Shown: positions 28,249-38,871 of the stretch, in pieces
How positions within the stretch are numbered: the first letter of the stretch is position 1
Layout of the letters: every line of letters starts with the position of its first letter
Source of the DNA: Streptomyces sp. NBC_01571
Lineage (GTDB): Bacteria > Actinomycetota > Actinomycetes > Streptomycetales > Streptomycetaceae
DNA: 64,000 bases
Direction of reading: 5' to 3'
Assembly (NCBI RefSeq): GCF_026339875.1
Contig: NZ_JAPEPZ010000001.1
Location: 6,448,001 to 6,512,000 of the forward strand
Notes under the pieces: generated by a model
Databases searched by the model: none
What the model was told of the DNA's origin: nothing
Seen by the model: the letters and a program-made list of their open reading frames with translations, nothing else
Position numbers and translations under genes: made by a program

Positions 28249-28962
28249 ATGAACTCACGCCAGCGCCGCGGCGTCATCCTGCTGGTCCTCTCGGTCCTGT
28301 GCGCCCTGGGCGCCTTCGCCGGAGTGCTCTCGGTGATCCGCGACGTGAACTCCAAGGTCGGCCCGGAGGTCTCGGCGTACCGCCTGAAGGACGACATCGC
28401 GCCCTACAAGGAGCTGACGGCCGACCAGTTCCAGAAGATCTCGATGCCCGAGCGCTGGCTGTCCTCCACGGCGGTCACGGACCTCTCCCGGATCCGCGGG
28501 AAGATCGCCGTCACCCAGCTCAAGAAGGGCTCTCTGCTCCAGAGCGACATGATCGTGGACCGGCCCGCGCTGGAAGCGGGCCAGCAGGAGATCGCCATCA
28601 TGATCGACGCAGCGACCGGTGTGGCCGGAAAGATCGACCCGGGCGCGCGGGTCAACATCTACGCCACCTTCAAGGCGGAGAACGACAAGCAGAAGGACCA
28701 GTCCAAGGTCATCGTGGCGAACGCGCGCGTCATCGACGTCGGCAGACTCACCGCCCTCGACCCCGGCCAGTCCAGCGCCGAACGCAGCCGCACCGCCACC
28801 CAGGCCGTCCCCATCACCTTCGCGCTCGACACCGCCGACGCCCAACGCGTCGCGTACGCCGAGTCCTTCGCGACCCACGTCCGGCTCGCCCTGGTCGCGG
28901 GCGGCTCCGACACCACCGTCGCCCCCGGCGAGCGTACGTACACCCTCGACCAGGACAAGTAG
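28249..28962 (+). CDS. cpaB: CpaB/RcpC-like SAF-domain pilus assembly protein
   Basis: 237 aa. An N-terminal membrane anchor (residues 8-30, GVILLVLSVLCALGAFAGVLS) precedes a SAF domain (AYRLKDDIAPYKELTADQFQKISMP... GKIAVTQLKKGSLLQSDMI) and a C-terminal beta domain. CpaB/RcpC proteins act outside the membrane in Flp pilus assembly. No outer membrane exists here, so it may steer the fibre through the wall. ATG 28249 is preceded by GAGG. The stop touches AGGAGG of the following leader ORF. Confidence 0.85.
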   Translation: MNSRQRRGVILLVLSVLCALGAFAGVLSVIRDVNSKVGPEVSAYRLKDDIAPYKELTADQFQKISMPERWLSSTAVTDLSRIRGKIAVTQLKKGSLLQSDMIVDRPALEAGQQEIAIMIDAATGVAGKIDPGARVNIYATFKAENDKQKDQSKVIVANARVIDVGRLTALDPGQSSAERSRTATQAVPITFALDTADAQRVAYAESFATHVRLALVAGGSDTTVAPGERTYTLDQDK

Positions 28963-28972
28963 GAGGCCGCGC

Positions 28973-29005
28973 ATGAGGTCCACGCCCCCGGGGCCGTGCC
29001 GATGA
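28973..29005 (+). CDS. possible 10-residue leader peptide
   Basis: ATG at 28973 sits six bases after AGGAGG (28961-28966) and encodes MRSTPPGPCR. Its TGA overlaps the cpaE-tadE ATG as ATGA. It is the only good Shine-Dalgarno in this junction, and it is out of frame with the fusion gene. The ORF may couple translation of the fusion; alternatively the ribosome site is used inefficiently for the ATG at 29002. Confidence 0.4.
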   Translation: MRSTPPGPCR

Positions 29006-30618
29006 CCATTCGTATCCTCCCGGCCGTCGGCGACATCGACTCGGCCCGAGCGCTCACCACCCTGCTCAGCCAGCTCGCCGACGCCGAACCCGCCCCGCCC
29101 GTCCCCGACTCCACCGCCCTCCTCGACACCCTCGCCCGGCTCGCGGCGGAGTCGCTCGACGAGCTGCCCGAAGTCGTCCTCGTCCACGAACGCATCGGTC
29201 CCGTACCGGCGTTGGACCTCATCCGCGATCTGGTGCTGCGTTTCCCGGCGGTCGGTGTCGTCCTCATCACGGCCGACGCCAGCACCGGCGTCCTCACCGC
29301 CGCCATGGACTCCGGCGCCCGCGGCATCATCGGTCTGCCGCTCGGCTACGACGCCCTCGCCGAACGCGTCCAGGCCGCGGCCGGATGGTCGCTCGGCATG
29401 CGGCGCCACCTCGGCAGCGGTACGCCCGAGCTGTACACGGGCCCCGGCGGCACCGTCGTCACGGTCACCGGGGCGAAGGGCGGCGTCGGCACCACCGTGA
29501 CCGCGGTCCAGATCGCCCTGGCGTCTAAGGCCTCGGGGCGGAACGTGGCGCTGGTGGACCTCGACCTCCAGTCCGGCGACGTCGCCTCCTACCTGGACGT
29601 GCAGTTCCGCCGGTCGGTGGCCGACCTCGCCGGGATCAGCGACATCAACCCGCGCGTCCTCCAGGACGCCGTCTACCTCCACGACAGCGGCGTCGGCCTG
29701 CTGCTCGCCCCCGCCGAGGGAGAACGCGGCGAGGAGGTCACGGACCGGGTGACGCGCCAGGTGCTGTCGGTCCTGCGCTCCCGCCACGACGTCGTGATCG
29801 TCGACTGCGGCTCCCAGATGAACTCCGCGACCGCGGCGGCCGTGGAGATGGCCGACCAGGCGCTGCTCCTCGTCACCCCGGACGTCGTGGCCGTCCGCGC
29901 CGCCAAACGCATGGTCCGTATGTGGGACCGCCTCCAGATCCGCAAGGCGGAGGAGACGACCACGGTCGTCAACCGGTTCGCCCGCGGTACGGAGATCCAG
30001 CCCTCCCTGGTCCAACGCGTCACCGGCACCAAAGTCGCGAGCGCGGCGGTCCCCGCCGCCTTCAAGGAGCTCCAGTCCGTCGTGGACGCGGGCCGCCTCC
30101 AGGACCTGGACGCCCGCTCCACCGTCAAACAGGCGCTGTGGTCACTGGCGGCGGAACTGGGACTGGTGGTCGCCCAGGAGGGCGGGGGCGGCGGCCGGCG
30201 CCGCAAGGCCTCCCCGGACCGGGGGGCGTCGGCGCTGCGCAGGAGGGGCGGCGACCGGGGCGCGGTGACCCTGGAGTTCGCCGGCATGTTCCCGATCCTG
30301 CTGGTCGTGATGACGATCCTGTGGCAGTGCGTGCTGTACGGCTACTCGTACTCGCTGGCCGGGAACGCGGCGGACGAGGCGGCGCGCGCGGCCACGGCGG
30401 CCTACGCGGTCGACGGTGACGTCGGCGGCGCCTGCCGGACGGCCGGGAGCCGGCACCTGCCGGGCTCCTGGAGGGACGCGGGCATCGAATGCGCTCCGGC
30501 GGGCTCGGTGATGAGGGCCACCGTCGACGTCGACGTCCCGCTCTTCTTCCCGGGGTTCGACGCGGGGTGGCACGTGAAAGGGACGGCGGGCGCGGCGCTG
30601 GAGGGGGACGTCGGATGA
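29002..30618 (+). CDS. CpaE/TadZ ATPase fused to a TadE pseudopilin
   Basis: 538 aa. Residues 1-135 are a receiver-like domain; about 150-400 are a MinD/ParA-type ATPase with the deviant Walker A TGAKGGVGTT (about 154-163), DLDLQSGDVAS and VIVDCGS. TadZ proteins place the pilus machine at its site. A basic linker (GGGGGRRRKAS...RRRGGDRG) follows. At 420-426 is G|AVTLEF, an intact GxxxxEF prepilin-peptidase site, then a membrane helix and TadE body. Cleavage would separate a cytosolic ATPase from a surface pseudopilin. Start ATG 29002 overlaps the leader ORF; GTG 28996 is an alternative. Confidence 0.9.
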   Translation: MTIRILPAVGDIDSARALTTLLSQLADAEPAPPVPDSTALLDTLARLAAESLDELPEVVLVHERIGPVPALDLIRDLVLRFPAVGVVLITADASTGVLTAAMDSGARGIIGLPLGYDALAERVQAAAGWSLGMRRHLGSGTPELYTGPGGTVVTVTGAKGGVGTTVTAVQIALASKASGRNVALVDLDLQSGDVASYLDVQFRRSVADLAGISDINPRVLQDAVYLHDSGVGLLLAPAEGERGEEVTDRVTRQVLSVLRSRHDVVIVDCGSQMNSATAAAVEMADQALLLVTPDVVAVRAAKRMVRMWDRLQIRKAEETTTVVNRFARGTEIQPSLVQRVTGTKVASAAVPAAFKELQSVVDAGRLQDLDARSTVKQALWSLAAELGLVVAQEGGGGGRRRKASPDRGASALRRRGGDRGAVTLEFAGMFPILLVVMTILWQCVLYGYSYSLAGNAADEAARAATAAYAVDGDVGGACRTAGSRHLPGSWRDAGIECAPAGSVMRATVDVDVPLFFPGFDAGWHVKGTAGAALEGDVG

Positions 30619-31034
30619 CGGCCTCCCAGGGACGGCGGACGGATCACGGGCGGCAGCCGGAGCGGCGGCTGAAGGACAGGCCGCGGCCGGGGCGTCGCCT
30701 CCGTGACGACCGGGGCGTCTCCATGCTGGAGTTCGCCGGGTTCCTGCCCATCCTGCTGGTCATCGGGATGGCCGCCATCCAGCTCGGCCTCATCGGATAC
30801 GGGATCAACCAGGCCGGTTCCGGCGCGCGCGCCGCCGCCCGGGTCGCCTCGCAGGGCGGCGACGGCGGGGCGGCGGGAAGCGCCGCGGTGAGCGGATGGC
30901 TGGATCCGCGGGTCGCCCCCGCGACGGGGCCGGACCTCACCACCGCCACGGTCACCGTGCGTGTCCCCGGGGTCATCCCCCTCTTCGGCCCCTACGAGGT
31001 GACCCGCCGCGCCACCATGCCCACCGACGACTGA
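30615..31034 (+). CDS. TadE-like minor pseudopilin
   Basis: 139 aa. A basic N-terminus (residues 1-33) leads to G34|VSMLEF, the type IVb prepilin cleavage site with Glu at +5, then a membrane helix (AGFLPILLVIGMAAIQLGLIGYG) and a small exported domain. TadE proteins are processed by the Tad prepilin peptidase and help fibre assembly. Overlaps the fusion gene by ATGA. It is the second TadE module in a row. Confidence 0.88.
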   Translation: MTASQGRRTDHGRQPERRLKDRPRPGRRLRDDRGVSMLEFAGFLPILLVIGMAAIQLGLIGYGINQAGSGARAAARVASQGGDGGAAGSAAVSGWLDPRVAPATGPDLTTATVTVRVPGVIPLFGPYEVTRRATMPTDD

Positions 31035-31103: not shown

Positions 31104-32444
31104 ATGAGCCTGCGATCCCGACTGGCCACCCCCGACGAGGGAGGCCCCGCCCGTGAGGACGGACACCTCGTCGCCGTCTACCGCGCCAAGCTCCTCGAGG
31201 AGATCGACCTCGCCGAGATGTCGAGCCTGGCGGCAGCCGAACGACGGGTGCGCCTGGAGCGCGTACTCGGCCACATCATCAGCCGCGAAGGCCCCGTCCT
31301 CTCCTCCGCCGAACGCGCCCAGCTGATCCGGCGGGTCGTGGACGAGGCCCTCGGACTCGGCGTCCTCGAACCACTGCTCGCCGACGCGTCGATCACCGAG
31401 ATCATGGTCAACGGCCCGGACTCGATCTTCGTGGAGCGGGCGGGCCGGGTCGAGCAGCTCCCGCTCCGCTTCGCCTCCACCGAACAGCTCATGCAGACCA
31501 TCGAACGCATCGTCTCCACGGTCAACCGCCGCGTCGACGAGTCCAACCCCATGGTCGACGCCCGCCTCCCCACCGGCGAACGCGTCAACGTCATCATCCC
31601 GCCGCTCGCCCTCACCGGGCCCACCCTCACCATCCGCCGCTTCCCCCGCGCCTACACACTGCCCGAGCTCATCGGCCTCGGCTCGCTCGACGAACAGATG
31701 CTGATGCTCCTCGCCGCGTTCGTGCGCGCCCGGTTCAACGTGATCGTCAGCGGCGGCACGGGCAGCGGGAAGACCACCCTCCTCAACGCGCTCTCCGGGC
31801 TCATCCCGTCCCACGAACGCATCATCACCATCGAGGACTCCGCCGAACTCCAGCTCCAGCAGGAACACGTCATCCGCCTGGAGTCCCGGCCCCCGAACGT
31901 CGAGGGCAAGGGCCAGATCACCATCCGCGAACTGGTCCGCAACTCCCTGCGCATGCGCCCCGACCGCATCATCGTCGGTGAGGTCCGCGGCGGGGAGACC
32001 CTCGACATGCTGCAGGCCATGTCGACCGGCCACGACGGCTCCCTCGCGACGGTCCACGCGAACTCCGCGGAGGACGCCCTCATGCGGCTCCAGACCCTCG
32101 GCTCGATGTCCGAGGTCCTGATCCCCTTCGAGGCGCTGAAGGACCAGATCAACTCGGCCGTCGACGTGGTCGTCCAGCTGTCCCGGCACGCCGACGGCTC
32201 CCGCAGGATCACCGAGATCGCCCTGCTGGTCTCGCACGGCCGCGAACAGTTCCGGGTCGTCCCCGTCACCCGCTTCGTACCGCGACCCGTCGGCCCCGAC
32301 CGTGTCGTCCAGGGCCGTTTCGAGCACCTCCCGCTGCCCCGCCCGGTCGCCGAGAAGCTGTACGTCGCCAACGAGCCACTGCCGCCCGCCTTCGGCGTCG
32401 TCGAGGTCCTGGACGCACTCGATCCCAGGCAGGCCATCGGATGA
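31104..32444 (+). CDS. tadA: TadA/CpaF secretion ATPase
   Basis: 446 aa cytosolic hexameric ATPase that powers Flp pilus assembly. The N-domain (about 1-150) includes ASITEIMVNGPDSIFVERAG. Walker A is GGTGSGKTT near residue 218; the Asp box is ITIEDSAELQ; Walker B is IIVGEVRGGE near 290; the His box is HDGSLATVHANS. It is the core of the T2SE CpaF group. ATG 31104 has GGGAGGAG upstream. It lies 69 bases after tadE. Confidence 0.95.
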   Translation: MSLRSRLATPDEGGPAREDGHLVAVYRAKLLEEIDLAEMSSLAAAERRVRLERVLGHIISREGPVLSSAERAQLIRRVVDEALGLGVLEPLLADASITEIMVNGPDSIFVERAGRVEQLPLRFASTEQLMQTIERIVSTVNRRVDESNPMVDARLPTGERVNVIIPPLALTGPTLTIRRFPRAYTLPELIGLGSLDEQMLMLLAAFVRARFNVIVSGGTGSGKTTLLNALSGLIPSHERIITIEDSAELQLQQEHVIRLESRPPNVEGKGQITIRELVRNSLRMRPDRIIVGEVRGGETLDMLQAMSTGHDGSLATVHANSAEDALMRLQTLGSMSEVLIPFEALKDQINSAVDVVVQLSRHADGSRRITEIALLVSHGREQFRVVPVTRFVPRPVGPDRVVQGRFEHLPLPRPVAEKLYVANEPLPPAFGVVEVLDALDPRQAIG

Positions 32445-32469
32445 CCACCACGACCGAGAGGAGCGAGCC

Positions 32470-33411
32470 GTGAACAACCCCGCCGCCCTGGCCCTCGGCG
32501 CCACCGTCCTGTGCGGCACCCTCGCCGTCGCGGGTGTACACACGTACGCCTCCGGACGTGCGCAGCGCCAGGCCCTCGTGGACCGGCTCGCCGGCGGCGG
32601 CCCGCTGCGCACGGCCGCCGGCCGCGTACGCCGCTTCGCCGCCGTCGACCGCCGGCTGCGCCGCACCCGTCTCGGCCGCACCATCCACCTGCGTCTGTCG
32701 GCGACGGGCCTCGACGTGACGGCGGGCGAGTTCGCCACCTACGTCACCGCCGTCGTCGTCGCGCTGTGGCTGATCGCGGCCTCGGTGCTGGCCCCCTTCT
32801 TCGGCCCGATCGCCGCCCTGGTCGGGGTGTGGAGCGCGGTCATATTCCTCAACTGGCAGCGCCAGAAACGCATCGAGGCCTTCATCGGCCAACTCCCCGA
32901 CGTGGCGAGACTGCTGGCCAACGCGACCGCCGCCGGCCTCGCCATGCGGACCGCGCTGGCGATGGCCGCCGAGGAGCTGGAGAACCCGGCGGGCGAGGAA
33001 CTCGCCCACGTCGCCGATCAGTTGATGATGGGTCGCTCCATCGACGACGCACTCGGCGAGCTCTCCGAGCGGCTCCCCTCCCGTGAGCTGATCGTCCTGG
33101 TCACCACCCTGGTCCTCGCCAACAAGGCGGGCGGCTCGGTCGTCAGCTCCCTGCGCAACCTCACCCAGACCCTGGAGGACCGCAAGGAGACCCGCCGCGA
33201 GGTCCGCACGATGCTCTCCGAGGTCAACGCCACGGCCTTCACGGTCCCGCTGCTCGGCCTCGGCTCCCTGCTCCTGATCAACTCCTCGAACGAGGGCGCG
33301 CTCGCCCGCGTCACCGGCTCAGGCCTGGGCCAGGCCCTCGTCCTGATCGCGCTGGGCCTGTACACCGTCGGCTTCTTCGTCATCCGCCGCCTCGGCAAGA
33401 TCGAAGTCTGA
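32470..33411 (+). CDS. tadB: TadB inner-membrane platform protein
   Basis: 313 aa with a T2SF (GspF) domain. Membrane segments lie near 1-25, 90-125 and 255-305; the cytosolic loop contains FIGQLPDVARLLANATAAGLAMRTALAMAAEEL, the family block. With TadC it forms the membrane platform for pilin assembly. GTG 32470 has GAGCGAG upstream. 25 bases after tadA. Confidence 0.92.
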   Translation: MNNPAALALGATVLCGTLAVAGVHTYASGRAQRQALVDRLAGGGPLRTAAGRVRRFAAVDRRLRRTRLGRTIHLRLSATGLDVTAGEFATYVTAVVVALWLIAASVLAPFFGPIAALVGVWSAVIFLNWQRQKRIEAFIGQLPDVARLLANATAAGLAMRTALAMAAEELENPAGEELAHVADQLMMGRSIDDALGELSERLPSRELIVLVTTLVLANKAGGSVVSSLRNLTQTLEDRKETRREVRTMLSEVNATAFTVPLLGLGSLLLINSSNEGALARVTGSGLGQALVLIALGLYTVGFFVIRRLGKIEV

Positions 33412-33427
33412 GGAAGGAGGGATCACG

Positions 33428-34318
33428 TTGCTCCCCCTGCTGCTCGCCCTCCTGACGGCCGCCGCCGTCGCGGGCGCCCTGCTGGGCATCCGCATGATCC
33501 GTGCCGACGCCAAACTGCCCAGCGACCTCGCGCTCGCCCTGGAGGTCGGCGGAACCCGCGTCTCCAAGGCGGATTCCGCCGTCGACCGCCTCGGCATGCG
33601 CTTCGCGCCCACGGTGCTGCGCCTGATGGGCCCCCGCCGCGTCGACGCCAAACGCCGGCGCATAGACATGGCGGGCAACCCCGGGGGTCTGACGCTCAAC
33701 CGCTACGCCGCGCGCCGCGCGGTGTACGGCATCTTCGGTGTCCTGCTGGGGCTGATCTTCCTCACCAACGGCCGGCTCCTGTTCGCCGTGCTCTCGCTGA
33801 CCTTCGGCCTGGTCGCCGCCGACGCCCTCATCTGGCAGGCGGTCCGCGAACGCAAGGAGGCCATCGACCGCATCCTCCCCGACTTCCTCGACGTCCTCGC
33901 GGTCGTGGTCTCGGCGGGCCTCGGCTTCCGCCAGGCACTGGACCGCGTCGCGGAGAAGTACGAGGGTCCCTGGGCGGACGAACTGCGCATCACGCTGCGC
34001 CAGATGGACATGGGCGTCAGCCGCCGGCAGGCCTTCGACGAGCTGCGCAGGCGCAACTCCTCCGAACAGGTCGCCCAGTTCGTGTCGGCGTTGCAGCAGG
34101 GCGAGGAACTCGGCTCCCCGATCGCCGAGACCCTGATCCAGCTGGCCACGGACATGCGCCGGACGGACGCCCAGAACGCCCGCCGCCGCGCGGCCAAGAC
34201 CATCCCCAAGGCGACGATGGTCACCCTCGTCTTCATGCTTCCGGCGACGATGATCCTGATCGCCACGGGAATGTTCCTGGGTTCGGGCACGAACTTCGGC
34301 TCGATCCTGGGCCGCTGA
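33428..34318 (+). CDS. tadC: TadC inner-membrane platform protein
   Basis: 296 aa, second T2SF protein. It has an N-terminal helix, a pair near 100-130 and two at the C-terminus; the cytosolic T2SF block is RILPDFLDVLAVVVSAGLGFRQALDRVAEKYEGPW. The start is the uncommon TTG at 33428, supported by a strong GGAAGGAGG ending 8 bases before it. The stop overlaps the kinase ATG by one base (TGATG). Confidence 0.92.
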   Translation: MLPLLLALLTAAAVAGALLGIRMIRADAKLPSDLALALEVGGTRVSKADSAVDRLGMRFAPTVLRLMGPRRVDAKRRRIDMAGNPGGLTLNRYAARRAVYGIFGVLLGLIFLTNGRLLFAVLSLTFGLVAADALIWQAVRERKEAIDRILPDFLDVLAVVVSAGLGFRQALDRVAEKYEGPWADELRITLRQMDMGVSRRQAFDELRRRNSSEQVAQFVSALQQGEELGSPIAETLIQLATDMRRTDAQNARRRAAKTIPKATMVTLVFMLPATMILIATGMFLGSGTNFGSILGR

Positions 34319-35925
34319 TGAACGCCCGCCGCACGCCGCCGCCCTGGCTGCCGCCTGCCGCGCCGCGACTGCCCCGGCCGGGTGCGCGGCGGAGCCTCCG
34401 GGGGTCCTCACCGGGCCACCCGTGGGCCCCACCGGGCCGCTCGTGGGCTCCGCCTGGCCGTCTGTGGGCCCGGCTGGTCCGGCCGTGGGCACCCGAGCAC
34501 TCCACGAGCCCCGCCGAGCACCCGGAGGCGGGGGGAGAGGGCGCGGCGCAGCGAACGCGGGGAGCCGCGGCGTCGGCGGAACGGGGACGGGCGGGGGAAG
34601 CCGGGCAGGCGACGGCGTCGAGCTGGCCCGAGGGCGCGGGACCCGGCTATCTGGCCGACGACGTCCCCGCCCCCGGCAACGTCCGTCTCCAGCTCAACGC
34701 CCTCCAGGCCCTCTGTCGCCAGGCCTTTGCCGTCCGCCTCGCCGCGATCGCGATCGGCGCCCCCTTCGCGATGGCCAACGCGAGCGACGGCCTGTCCCGC
34801 TACGCGGTCCTGGCCGCCGCCGTCCTCGGCGTCATGGGCTCGTACGCCATGCTCAGGGACTGGGACCGCTTCGGACCCCGCCTCCTCGCGCACCCCACCC
34901 TGATGGCCGTGGACCTGACCTTCGGCGCGGTGCTGCTCCTGACGGCGTCCCCCGCGTCCCCCCTCGCCTACGCGACGGTCTGCACCCCGCTGCTGGCGGG
35001 CCTGCTGTACGGCTGGCGCGGCTCGGGCGTCTTCACGGGCCTGCAGCTGATCGTCCTGGTGACGGTGTACCGGGCCTGGCAGCACCACCCGGGGGCCGGC
35101 GCCAACACCTTCCTGATCGCGGGGTTCTGCGTCGGCGCGGGCATCATCGGCGTCACCCTGCGCAACCTGATGTTCCGCTTCGGCACGGCGAGCCAGGCGC
35201 TGTCCGAGGCGAACTCCCGCCTGGCCGTCGCCGAGGCCGTCGAGTCGGAACGGGCGCGACTGGCACGCGAGATGCACGACTCGGTGGCGAAGACGCTGCA
35301 CGGGCTGGCCCTGGCGGCGGAGGCGCTGGCTGCTGCCGCCTCGGCGGACGGTGCGGACCCGGGCACGCTGAAGCGCCAGGCGACGACGGTCGCGGGGGCG
35401 GCCCGGCGGGCGGCGGTGGAGTCCCGAGACCTTCTGTCGGACCTGCGCCGTCATACGAACCTCACCACGCCGGAAACGGACGTCCTGTCCGAACTCGCCG
35501 GGCAGATCTCGGCGTTCGAGGCGCGCACCCAGCTCCCCACAGAACTCCGTCACCGCGGCGAGCGCCCGGTCCTGCCCTGGGCGACCGCCCGCCACGTCCT
35601 CGCGATCGTGTCCGAGGCGCTGGAGAACACGCACCGGCACGCACACGCGAAGGCGGTGACGGTGGAAGTGGAAGTGAACACCGGCGAAGCCGAGTTCGCG
35701 GTACGGGTGCGGGACGACGGCGTGGGCCCGCCTCCCGGCGCCACCCTCGGCGACCTGACCAGAACCGGCCACTTCGGCCTGCTCGGCATGGCGGAACGCG
35801 CCGCCTCCCTGGGCGGCCGCATCGACCTGACCCGACCCGAGCAAGGAGGGGCCGAGGTCCATCTGGCCCTTCCCCTCGCCCCCACTCCTCCCCACACCCC
35901 CCAAGAGGAGGCCGCACATGCCTGA
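34318..35925 (+). CDS. NarL-type sensor histidine kinase of the Tad cluster
   Basis: 535 aa. Residues 1-115 are Pro/Ala/Gly-rich; 30-60 are a degenerate repeat (HPWAPPG, RSWAPPG, RLWARL, RPWAPE). Six or so membrane helices (about 135-290) follow. HisKA_3 has AREMHDSVAKTLHGL with phospho-acceptor His320; the HATPase shows SEALENTHRHAHA, RDDGVG and GHFGLLGMAERA. It pairs with the downstream regulator and likely controls pilus genes. The repeated N-terminus may not be expressed if a later start is used. Confidence 0.88.
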   Translation: MNARRTPPPWLPPAAPRLPRPGARRSLRGSSPGHPWAPPGRSWAPPGRLWARLVRPWAPEHSTSPAEHPEAGGEGAAQRTRGAAASAERGRAGEAGQATASSWPEGAGPGYLADDVPAPGNVRLQLNALQALCRQAFAVRLAAIAIGAPFAMANASDGLSRYAVLAAAVLGVMGSYAMLRDWDRFGPRLLAHPTLMAVDLTFGAVLLLTASPASPLAYATVCTPLLAGLLYGWRGSGVFTGLQLIVLVTVYRAWQHHPGAGANTFLIAGFCVGAGIIGVTLRNLMFRFGTASQALSEANSRLAVAEAVESERARLAREMHDSVAKTLHGLALAAEALAAAASADGADPGTLKRQATTVAGAARRAAVESRDLLSDLRRHTNLTTPETDVLSELAGQISAFEARTQLPTELRHRGERPVLPWATARHVLAIVSEALENTHRHAHAKAVTVEVEVNTGEAEFAVRVRDDGVGPPPGATLGDLTRTGHFGLLGMAERAASLGGRIDLTRPEQGGAEVHLALPLAPTPPHTPQEEAAHA

Positions 35926-36649
35926 CCAGGCAGTCATCGGCCCGCCCCTCCGTGTACTCGTGGCCGACGACAACCCCGTCGTCCGGGCCGGACTGGCCGC
36001 GCTTCTCGGCGGTCATCCGGACATCGAGGTCGTCGCCGAGGCCGCGAACGGCGAGGACGCCGTGACCGCGGCGACCGCCCATCCGCCGGACGTCGTCCTC
36101 CTCGACGTCCGCATGCCCGGCACGGACGGGCTCACCGCCCTGCCCGACCTGGCCCGGCTCGCTCCCGTGATGATGCTGACGTACAGCCGTGAACCCGAGG
36201 TCGTGGCCGAGGCGTCACGCCGGGGCGCGGTCGGCTATCTCGTCCACGGCGAGTTCACGACGACCGAACTGATCACCGCGGTACGGGATGTGGGGCGCGG
36301 CCCTCGTGTTCTCCCGGATTCGATCGGTGTTTCGTACGAACCGAACAAAATCTCTTCGCACCTGCAACCGTTTGTGGGACAGTCGTCAAAGGCTCACCCC
36401 GGCCATGGAGCAAGGCTCCGCCGCCGTCTGCCCGACCGGCTCGACTTCGACCTGAGTGCGAGGGAGGTGGAGGTGATGGACCTCATCGCCGCCGGCATGA
36501 ACAACCGTCAGATCGCCGCCGCCTGCTTCATCAGTGAGAAGACCGTCAAGAACCACATCAACCGCATCTTCGCGAAGCTGCACAGCTCCTCGCGCAGCGA
36601 GGCGATCGCGCACTGGCTGGGGACGGCGCGGGAGGGGTGGAGCCGGTGA
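35918..36649 (+). CDS. NarL/FixJ response regulator of the Tad cluster
   Basis: 243 aa. The receiver domain has Asp-Asp (ADDNP) and phospho-acceptor Asp63 in LLDVRMPG. A long linker (about 125-170) precedes a LuxR-type helix-turn-helix (LSAREVEVMDLIAAGMNNRQIAAACFISEKTVKNHINRIFAKL). ATG 35918 overlaps the kinase by 8 bases, so they are coupled. It may act on the flp region downstream. Target unknown. Confidence 0.92.
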   Translation: MPDQAVIGPPLRVLVADDNPVVRAGLAALLGGHPDIEVVAEAANGEDAVTAATAHPPDVVLLDVRMPGTDGLTALPDLARLAPVMMLTYSREPEVVAEASRRGAVGYLVHGEFTTTELITAVRDVGRGPRVLPDSIGVSYEPNKISSHLQPFVGQSSKAHPGHGARLRRRLPDRLDFDLSAREVEVMDLIAAGMNNRQIAAACFISEKTVKNHINRIFAKLHSSSRSEAIAHWLGTAREGWSR

Positions 36650-36745
36650 CTCCAGCGCACGGAAGTTGGGCCCCTGGGCCCACTCGGAGTAGGCGGGTTC
36701 TCACGTACGGTGCCTGTGTCAAATTTGGCGGCGTGTGGGAGGGCA

Positions 36746-36997
36746 GTGCTCGTGGTGGCGAAGGACTGGACGCTGAGGGCCGGAGTCCGCGCGGAGCGCA
36801 CGCTGCGCGCCTGGACGGAGACCGTTTCCACCCGGATGCGGGGGAGTGGCCGGGACGCGGGGGCCGGGTTCGTGGAGTACGCGGGTCTGATGATTCTCAT
36901 CGCGGGGATCTACACCCTCATCGATCAACTCGGCCTGAACGGAAGGATCTCGCAGGCGATCGGCAATGCTGTGGACGACGTCGTCGGCGGAGGCTGA
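36746..36997 (+). CDS. flp: Flp major pilin
   Basis: 83 aa from GTG 36746. A basic leader (RAGVRAERTLRAWTETVSTRMRGSGRDAG) ends at the type IVb site G39|AGFVEY, with Glu at +5 and Tyr at +6. A hydrophobic helix (LMILIAGIYTLIDQLGL) forms the pilin core. It polymerises into the Flp fibre. GGAGGG at 36738-36743 fits GTG 36746 or 36752. About 96 bases separate it from the regulator, where a dedicated promoter and a TGGGCCC-N2-GGGCCCA dyad are possible. Confidence 0.88.
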   Translation: MLVVAKDWTLRAGVRAERTLRAWTETVSTRMRGSGRDAGAGFVEYAGLMILIAGIYTLIDQLGLNGRISQAIGNAVDDVVGGG

Positions 36998-37602
36998 GCG
37001 CCGGCCCACCGCGCAGCGATCGAGGGCAGACTCTCCCCATCTACATCTGGCTGACGGGAATCCTGCTCTTCGCCGCATTCGCCTTCTTCGCTTTCGCCCA
37101 AGCAGCGTCCGCCCGCAATGGAGCTCAGTCCGCGGCGGACGCTGCTGCGTTGGCAGCGGCACAGGACGCCCGCGACGAGCTCATGGACAAGCTGGGAGCC
37201 GCCGTCGGCCACGCAGACAACTGGCTGGACTGGCTCGACGGGATACAGGGTCCCGACGGAGTGGGGGCCGACACCGCGGCCCAGCAGTTGGCCGCCGAGA
37301 ACGACTCGACGCTTCGAGGCCTGCAGGCTGTCGAGAGGAACGGCTACCCCGGGTACCAGGCCGACATCCAGACCAACTACACGGTCGGCAGGTCGATCAT
37401 TCCCGGAACCGAGACCAAGCACGCGACCGCGCACGCCGTCGCCGTCATCCAGCCGCGCTGTGATTTCGAACCGGCCGCGGATCCGAAGAAGCCCGTCGAG
37501 CTGAACTGTGACGGCGACATCGTGAACATCGACCCCGGAGATTTCGATCCGGTCGACCTTCCGGACGCGTCCGTGCTGTTCTCTGTGCATTTGGCCGAGT
37601 GA
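36994..37602 (+). CDS. TadG-like pilus protein, start uncertain
   Basis: About 202 aa. It opens with a basic segment (LSAGPPRSDRGQ), then one membrane helix (TLPIYIWLTGILLFAAFAFFAFAQAA) and SARNGAQSAADAAALAAAQDARDEL, the TadG hallmark. The rest is an exported domain with two Cys. No ATG, GTG or TTG exists in frame between the pilin start and the helix; the next upstream in-frame start is 36637, inside the regulator gene. CTG 36994, directly after GGCGGAGG and overlapping the pilin TGA, is the best candidate. A sequencing indel is the alternative. Confidence 0.75.
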   Translation: MSAGPPRSDRGQTLPIYIWLTGILLFAAFAFFAFAQAASARNGAQSAADAAALAAAQDARDELMDKLGAAVGHADNWLDWLDGIQGPDGVGADTAAQQLAAENDSTLRGLQAVERNGYPGYQADIQTNYTVGRSIIPGTETKHATAHAVAVIQPRCDFEPAADPKKPVELNCDGDIVNIDPGDFDPVDLPDASVLFSVHLAE

Positions 37603-38214: not shown

Positions 38215-38871
38215 ATGGCCCTCACCTCCCGCGCTGCGGCGACCATGTTGACGGCCCTCGCCGTCCTGTCCACGCTGACCCTCACCGGCCCCCACGCGTC
38301 CGCGGACGACGGCGATCCGAGCGCACCGCCGGGCAGCCTCACGACATCACCGCCCCCCGACGTGGACGCGAACAGCCCCGGCCTAAAACTCGCCGACGGC
38401 GCCACCCTCGCCCCCGCCAAGGTGCTGGACATCAAGTCGGTGGTGGAGGACCTCGGCGGGGAGGAGCGGCGGGAGGACACCAACTCGGACGTGACGTTCG
38501 CGCTGCAGGCCGAAGTCCTCTTCCCCAAGGACAGTTCGAAACTGAACCCGGACGCCCGCGCCCGCATCGACGCGATCGCGGACGAGATCAAGGCCCAGAA
38601 GGCGACGACGGTCAGGGTCTTCGGCTTCACCGACAACCTCGGCTCGTACGCCCACGGCCTGACCCTCTCGAAGAAGCGCGCGGAGATCGTCCACGACGAG
38701 CTGGCGGCGGCGCTCGGTTCGACGGACGTCACCTTCGAGGTGCGTGGCTACAGCGAGGACTATCCGATCGCGGACAACACCTCGGAGCAGGGCCGCCGCA
38801 AGAACCGTCGCGTCGAGGTGACCTTCCCACGCGGCGCGTCGAGCGGTACCTCGTCGGGGACCCAGAGCTGA
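38215..38871 (+). CDS. secreted OmpA-family peptidoglycan-binding protein
   Basis: 218 aa. A signal peptide (residues 1-31, ending AHSA-like ASADD) precedes a Pro/Ser linker and a C-terminal OmpA domain (about 95-210). The domain has VLFPKDSSKLNPDARARIDAIADEI, GFTDNLGSYAHGLTLSKKRAE and RRKNRRVEV with the peptidoglycan-contact Asp/Arg. There is no outer membrane, so it probably anchors the pilus to the cell wall. It ends the cluster. Confidence 0.88.
   Translation: MALTSRAAATMLTALAVLSTLTLTGPHASADDGDPSAPPGSLTTSPPPDVDANSPGLKLADGATLAPAKVLDIKSVVEDLGGEERREDTNSDVTFALQAEVLFPKDSSKLNPDARARIDAIADEIKAQKATTVRVFGFTDNLGSYAHGLTLSKKRAEIVHDELAAALGSTDVTFEVRGYSEDYPIADNTSEQGRRKNRRVEVTFPRGASSGTSSGTQS

Follow-up and report, generated by a model that had tools for sequence, protein, structure and literature searches.

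What is made from a gene that joins a TadZ-type ATPase to a TadE pseudopilin in one frame, and whether its product would be cut at the joint, is the question raised by a locus of Streptomyces sp. NBC_01571 lying in the 64,000-nucleotide stretch of DNA that was analyzed as a whole (contig NZ_JAPEPZ010000001.1, positions 6,448,001 to 6,512,000), here called the window. The gene (29002..30618, plus strand) encodes 538 amino acids and its translation contains no internal stop; the open reading frame and Pfam agree with the first-pass annotation that ATPase and TadE are joined with no stop between them, and homologues and a structure model support the assignment. The model, generated with AlphaFold2 from an alignment of 68 proteins (mean pLDDT 90.7, pTM 0.54), comprises a receiver-like domain to approximately residue 140 (residues 1–140; 29002..29421) followed by a MinD/ParA-type ATPase domain (residues 150–390; 29449..30171) with the P-loop GAKGGVGTTV. 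Pfam families AAA_31, ParA and CbiA were matched within residues 151–314 or so, and the N-terminus gave profile matches to the receiver chains of the pilus-assembly/CpaE entries 4dad and 4dn6. No Response_reg Pfam match was obtained in the window protein itself, and such a match was present in 34 of the 68 aligned proteins. A fold search with the model returned ParA/MinD/FleN ATPases, with 3ea0 at the top; 3fkq, which ranked fourth, is a two-domain protein from Eubacterium rectale that we take to be the structure from the TadZ paper on that organism. Profile, Pfam, model and fold matches therefore agree on the previously suggested order of receiver-like domain and MinD-type ATPase.

Beyond the ATPase lies a linker (residues 391–419; 30172..30258) that is disordered by the model (pLDDT below 50 at 394–418) and, as had been noted for the joint, basic, with 9 Lys/Arg versus 3 Asp/Glu in residues 391–420. 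It leads to Gly420 (30259..30261), which site tallies and alignment mark as position -1 of a predicted prepilin-peptidase site, and to the TadE pseudopilin module (residues 421–538; 30262..30615), supported by Pfam, tallies and model, with Glu425 at +5. The Pfam TadE match spans residues 420–462 (33.1 bits versus a cut-off of 22.9), the modelled chain forms a long helix from 419 to 469 followed by a further helix and strands, and hydrophobicity is strongest at 420–450, with weaker windows at 71–102 inside the receiver-like domain. Gly(-1), Glu(+5) and the hydrophobic helix expected of a TadE are thus all present.

Both halves can be compared with known systems. MinD-type ATPases have a canonical P-loop motif, against which a P-loop is judged atypical, and the second lysine of that type is missing from 217 of 218 rows, these being the rows covered by the tallied patterns. 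An atypical Walker A is described for TadZ/CpaE in a passage of a survey (PMC6668835), which also cites the TadZ paper on E. rectale, and GAKGGVGTTV of the window protein is of this kind. With TadZ/CpaE the N-terminal part further shares the order of receiver and MinD-like domains and the fold (3fkq, 4dad, 4dn6), and it is a TadZ-type ATPase that putatively positions the pilus machine. TadZ is otherwise a separate protein, as in the unfused relatives, whereas here its C-terminus continues into a pseudopilin. The ATPase domain of CpaE_hom_Actino/Ssd (TIGR03815) is related; membership of that family was rejected at 69.1 bits versus a cut-off of 154.45. The C-terminal part resembles the TadE of Tad systems, which is matured by TadV (the title of a 2006 TadV paper reportedly names maturation of TadE), in its above-threshold Pfam match, its G|xxxxE site and its long N-terminal helix, and differs in what precedes the cut, namely a 420-residue ATPase as against a leader of only about 9–17 residues in 19 relatives with split genes of the same frame. 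TadZ and TadE are each known families; the joint with its conserved cutting site is new, and among the matches listed, judged by titles and abstract openings, no TadZ-TadE fusion was described in the open-access literature.

The surroundings are those of a tad operon, with RcpC, T2SSE and two T2SSF genes around the fusion, all on the plus strand. Upstream is an RcpC/CpaB gene (28249..28962, profile matches). Downstream are a second TadE-type gene (30615..31034; Pfam TadE at residues 34–76, site G34|VSMLEF), a tadA-type secretion ATPase (31104..32444, T2SSE), a tadB-type platform protein whose true start is probably inside the listed ORF (32302..33411, T2SSF), a tadC-type platform protein (33428..34318, DUF5936 and T2SSF) and a Flp-like pilin recognized by eye, with no Pfam match, from its site DAG|AGFVEY (36710..36997). 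A histidine kinase and a NarL-type response regulator lie between the tadC-type and Flp-like genes (34318–36649, plus strand). A TadG/Rv3654c-like protein, scoring under the cut-off of its model (36637–37602, plus strand), contains SDRG|QTLPIYIW, with Gly(-1) and Asp(-3) and no Glu(+5), and a protein resembling OmpA domains, matched by many OmpA-type models all below cut-off, is encoded near these tad genes of a Gram-positive organism (38215–38871, plus strand). A 10-codon mini-ORF (28973–29005, plus strand) sits behind an AGGAGG word and ends in ATGA over the start of the fusion gene; a conserved upstream mini-ORF was rejected, as it was not general among 13 fused relatives compared. The other TadE-like matches in the same genome were only 44% (the next gene) and 32% identical over part. 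A24 prepilin peptidases carry an aspartate motif, and the one A24 match in this genome, unlinked and approximately 500 kb away, shows such motifs in its frame. At least one A24 peptidase was found in all 56 other genomes tried, fused and unfused alike, and Micrococcus luteus is likewise reported to have just one peptidase gene, located away from its tad loci (PMC4322843).

The fusion site, G420|AVTLEF, and that of the next gene, G34|VSMLEF, both have Glu at +5, and the sequences confirm the intact GxxxxE(F/Y)-type site that had been proposed by analogy between the two. As the motif search for TadE rows itself demands G and E, conservation was counted on a set of 123 unique fused tails chosen only by a TadZ frame reaching at least 100 aa beyond residue 390, with the motif unused; many of these are close relatives. 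Gly(-1) and Glu(+5) were present in 123/123, and the runners-up in the stretch 404–461 were Pro(+11) and Ala(+37), with 122/123 each. Among 120 listed database homologues of a wider set, Gly(-1) was found in 119, the aligned column lacking Gly in the remaining one, and Glu(+5) in 115, with Asp at +5 in four. In the alignment of 68 proteins, which holds fused proteins only, at 30–86% identity to the window protein (36 out of 40 thinned loci together with 31 proteins among those 120 homologues), no column beyond Trp308 is invariant except Gly420. An acidic residue at -3 was shared by 123/123 fused sites, 95/95 unfused TadE sites and 199/200 TadE2 sites among motif-selected rows, so that the fused site resembles the other sites of the operon; residue +1 was Ala or Ser in 99/123 fused rows and Gln in 85/95 unfused rows. 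Linkers beside the site carried net positive charge in 116 of the 123 and none in seven, and their length ranged from 11 to 273 aa across fused relatives. The longest, 182–273 aa between TadZ and TadE, were seen at three loci (L109, L112 and L113). The prepilin-peptidase site is under strong constraint in the fused proteins. To our knowledge, Gly(-1) of class III signal peptides has no role except in cutting, and for this reason the site is read as selected for cleavage; its retention across the phylum in spite of linkers of such different length would be hard to explain unless the site were cut. Part of the Gly/Glu conservation may be an inherited family constraint, as unfused TadE has both residues.

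We therefore favor, as the probable explanation, a precursor that would be cut after G420 to give free TadZ and mature TadE. One gene would yield a bifunctional TadZ-TadE precursor, of which the cytosolic receiver and MinD-like part would form first; the hydrophobic TadE helix would then insert behind the basic linker, presumably with its N-terminus in and C-terminus out, and the single A24 prepilin peptidase would cut after G420 at the cytosolic face. The predicted products are a free TadZ of 420 aa that ends in a basic tail, and a mature TadE starting AVTLEF, and synthesis on TadZ may deliver TadE to the place of machine assembly.

Alternatively, the protein could stay whole, TadE fastening TadZ in the membrane at the base of the pilus, with Gly and Glu persisting as a family relic or a packing need. 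The fusion would then be a simple tether for a positioning ATPase, and the 420 residues preceding the predicted cut are no short leader, being far outside the range of 6–51 residues that a review passage states for class III signal peptides (PMC6916266). An anchor, however, needs no invariant glycine, and Gly(-1) is kept in every one of the 123 tails and in all 68 aligned proteins although its neighbors vary; many Streptomyces moreover have an unfused TadZ. This alternative, the chief competitor of cleavage, is considered unlikely.

With identical TadZ sequences counted once, and eight loci excluded because they belonged to the window, encoded other proteins or were incomplete (L002–L005, L106, L108, L155 and L249), 218 rows comprised 123 fused, 40 with a stop in the same frame and 55 with TadE in another frame. 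Twenty regions were fetched for one reported in-frame stop, of which one (L115) was fused and 19 were split: tadZ ends at a stop and, one or two codons later, ATG or GTG opens tadE in the same frame. Readthrough of the stop codon was rejected for these 20 on account of the 19 restarts and the fused L115. Two other loci (L165 and L168) were likewise reported with one stop yet are fused, so a single reported stop does not always mean a split at the joint. At a further locus (L151; 3242–1068, minus strand) a single frame runs through TadZ, TadE and a second TadE, with an apparent shift where the first TadE ends. In two trees built on 90 TadZ rows, a thinned subset of the 218, with outgroups on long branches, the fused state was clustered and did not form one clade, at least seven changes between fused and not fused being counted, of which the starred branches forced three in one tree and two in the other; in each tree the window belonged to a group of 12 fused rows supported at 99%. 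Because fused genes also occur among the outgroups, the fusion may either date far back, with several later losses, or have been gained several times. It is no general requirement, since tadZ and tadE are separate genes in many Streptomyces. Fused and unfused states recurring on the tree, together with a conserved site, are also consistent with partial or regulated cleavage, in which tethered and free TadZ would coexist and their ratio act as a switch, but the sequences carry no sign of regulation and extra assumptions would be needed, making this improbable.

A third possibility is that TadE is also made alone by internal initiation, the fusion being incidental. An in-frame ATG, GTG or TTG was present in 31/123 linkers and, within the 20 codons that close the TadZ part, in 81/123 fused genes (14 with a Shine-Dalgarno-like word), so that starts within these final codons are possible. 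Against this, 92/123 linkers contain no such codon, the window linker among them, and a start combined with a Shine-Dalgarno-like word was found in only five of the 123 linkers, whereas unfused tadE had a start in 95/95, accompanied by such a word in 68/95. Internal initiation was on these grounds mostly rejected, and as an explanation it is very improbable; with most linkers lacking a start, the fusion is probably the sole form in which TadE is synthesized. The first-pass annotation had further proposed that positioning of the machine is coupled to pseudopilin maturation in 1:1 amounts, the ATPase acting as a 420-residue leader that the peptidase releases. One frame without a conserved internal start upholds coupling of TadZ and TadE synthesis; the ATPase may be such a leader and its processing may regulate positioning, and the 1:1 ratio holds at synthesis only.

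The fusion was found in many other genomes, as the search proposed earlier had called for. The 120 homologues listed of 2936 (88–100% identity, query counted) were without exception full-length fusions with a TadE Pfam label. A TadZ frame extending at least 100 aa beyond residue 390 was found at 75 of 80 named genome loci, a set biased towards fusions because the search patterns covered the TadE part, and one of the five exceptions (L108) ends at a contig edge. All of 392 Streptomyces genomes gave some match, and at least 67 rows, window included, were stop-free from TadZ beyond residue 500. Thirty further Streptomyces genomes, taken in order of their handles from those outside the listing and passing over two with weak matches (G008 and G050), comprised four fused, with linkers of 54–85 aa, nine in the same frame with an intervening stop and 17 in another frame. 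The fusion is thus common, and not universal, within Streptomyces. A class-wide draw of 296 genomes gave matches in 295, and 22 regions, picked for strong matches and hence not a rate for the class, were inspected: 13 were fused, in the families coded f19, f42, f28 and f44, eight, all of f19, had TadE as a separate gene, and one (L249) had no TadE nearby. The 120 listed homologues of the wider set included proteins of Angustibacter, Flexivirga, Cellulomonas, Kineosporia, Georgenia and Actinotalea. Of 198 genomes drawn across the phylum, 192 gave a match; three fused loci lay outside the class (L251, L253 and L257), eight other inspected loci had TadZ-like frames without TadE, and the listing below the best eleven consisted mostly of weak ATPase matches ending short of the TadE part. 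A sequencing or assembly frameshift joining two separate genes, to which the existence of relatives with separate genes lends some color, was rejected as having next to no likelihood, since the fused gene is seen again in independent genomes, spanning many species and more than one family, and is full-length in every one of the 120 homologues listed of 2936.

These data bear on how actinobacterial Tad systems are annotated. Passages of a survey class many actinobacterial systems as unassigned and describe a large fraction of these as Tad-like by phylogeny, with minor pilins and TadC unidentifiable (PMC6668835). A precomputed TadE label was attached to only 14 of the 120 listed homologues of the wider set, of which 119 have the aligned Gly(-1), and a direct Pfam scan recognized TadE in 37 of the 68 aligned fused proteins. 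Some of the unidentifiable minor pilins may accordingly be hidden inside genes annotated CpaE, and the fusion may explain part of the annotation gap. It is conceivable, if at present a tentative extension that we would not yet expect to hold, that prepilins with giant leaders occur across the phylum, in which a site-finding ATPase would be made as leader to a minor pilin and bring it to the assembly site, one peptidase cut both maturing the pilin and freeing the landmark. A single changeable glycine offers a clean test of cleavage after G420, and fused and split states within one genus provide natural comparisons. If cleavage does occur, prepilin leaders, otherwise tens of residues long, would come to include a complete enzyme, and positioning of the machine and maturation of a pilin would be linked in one molecule.
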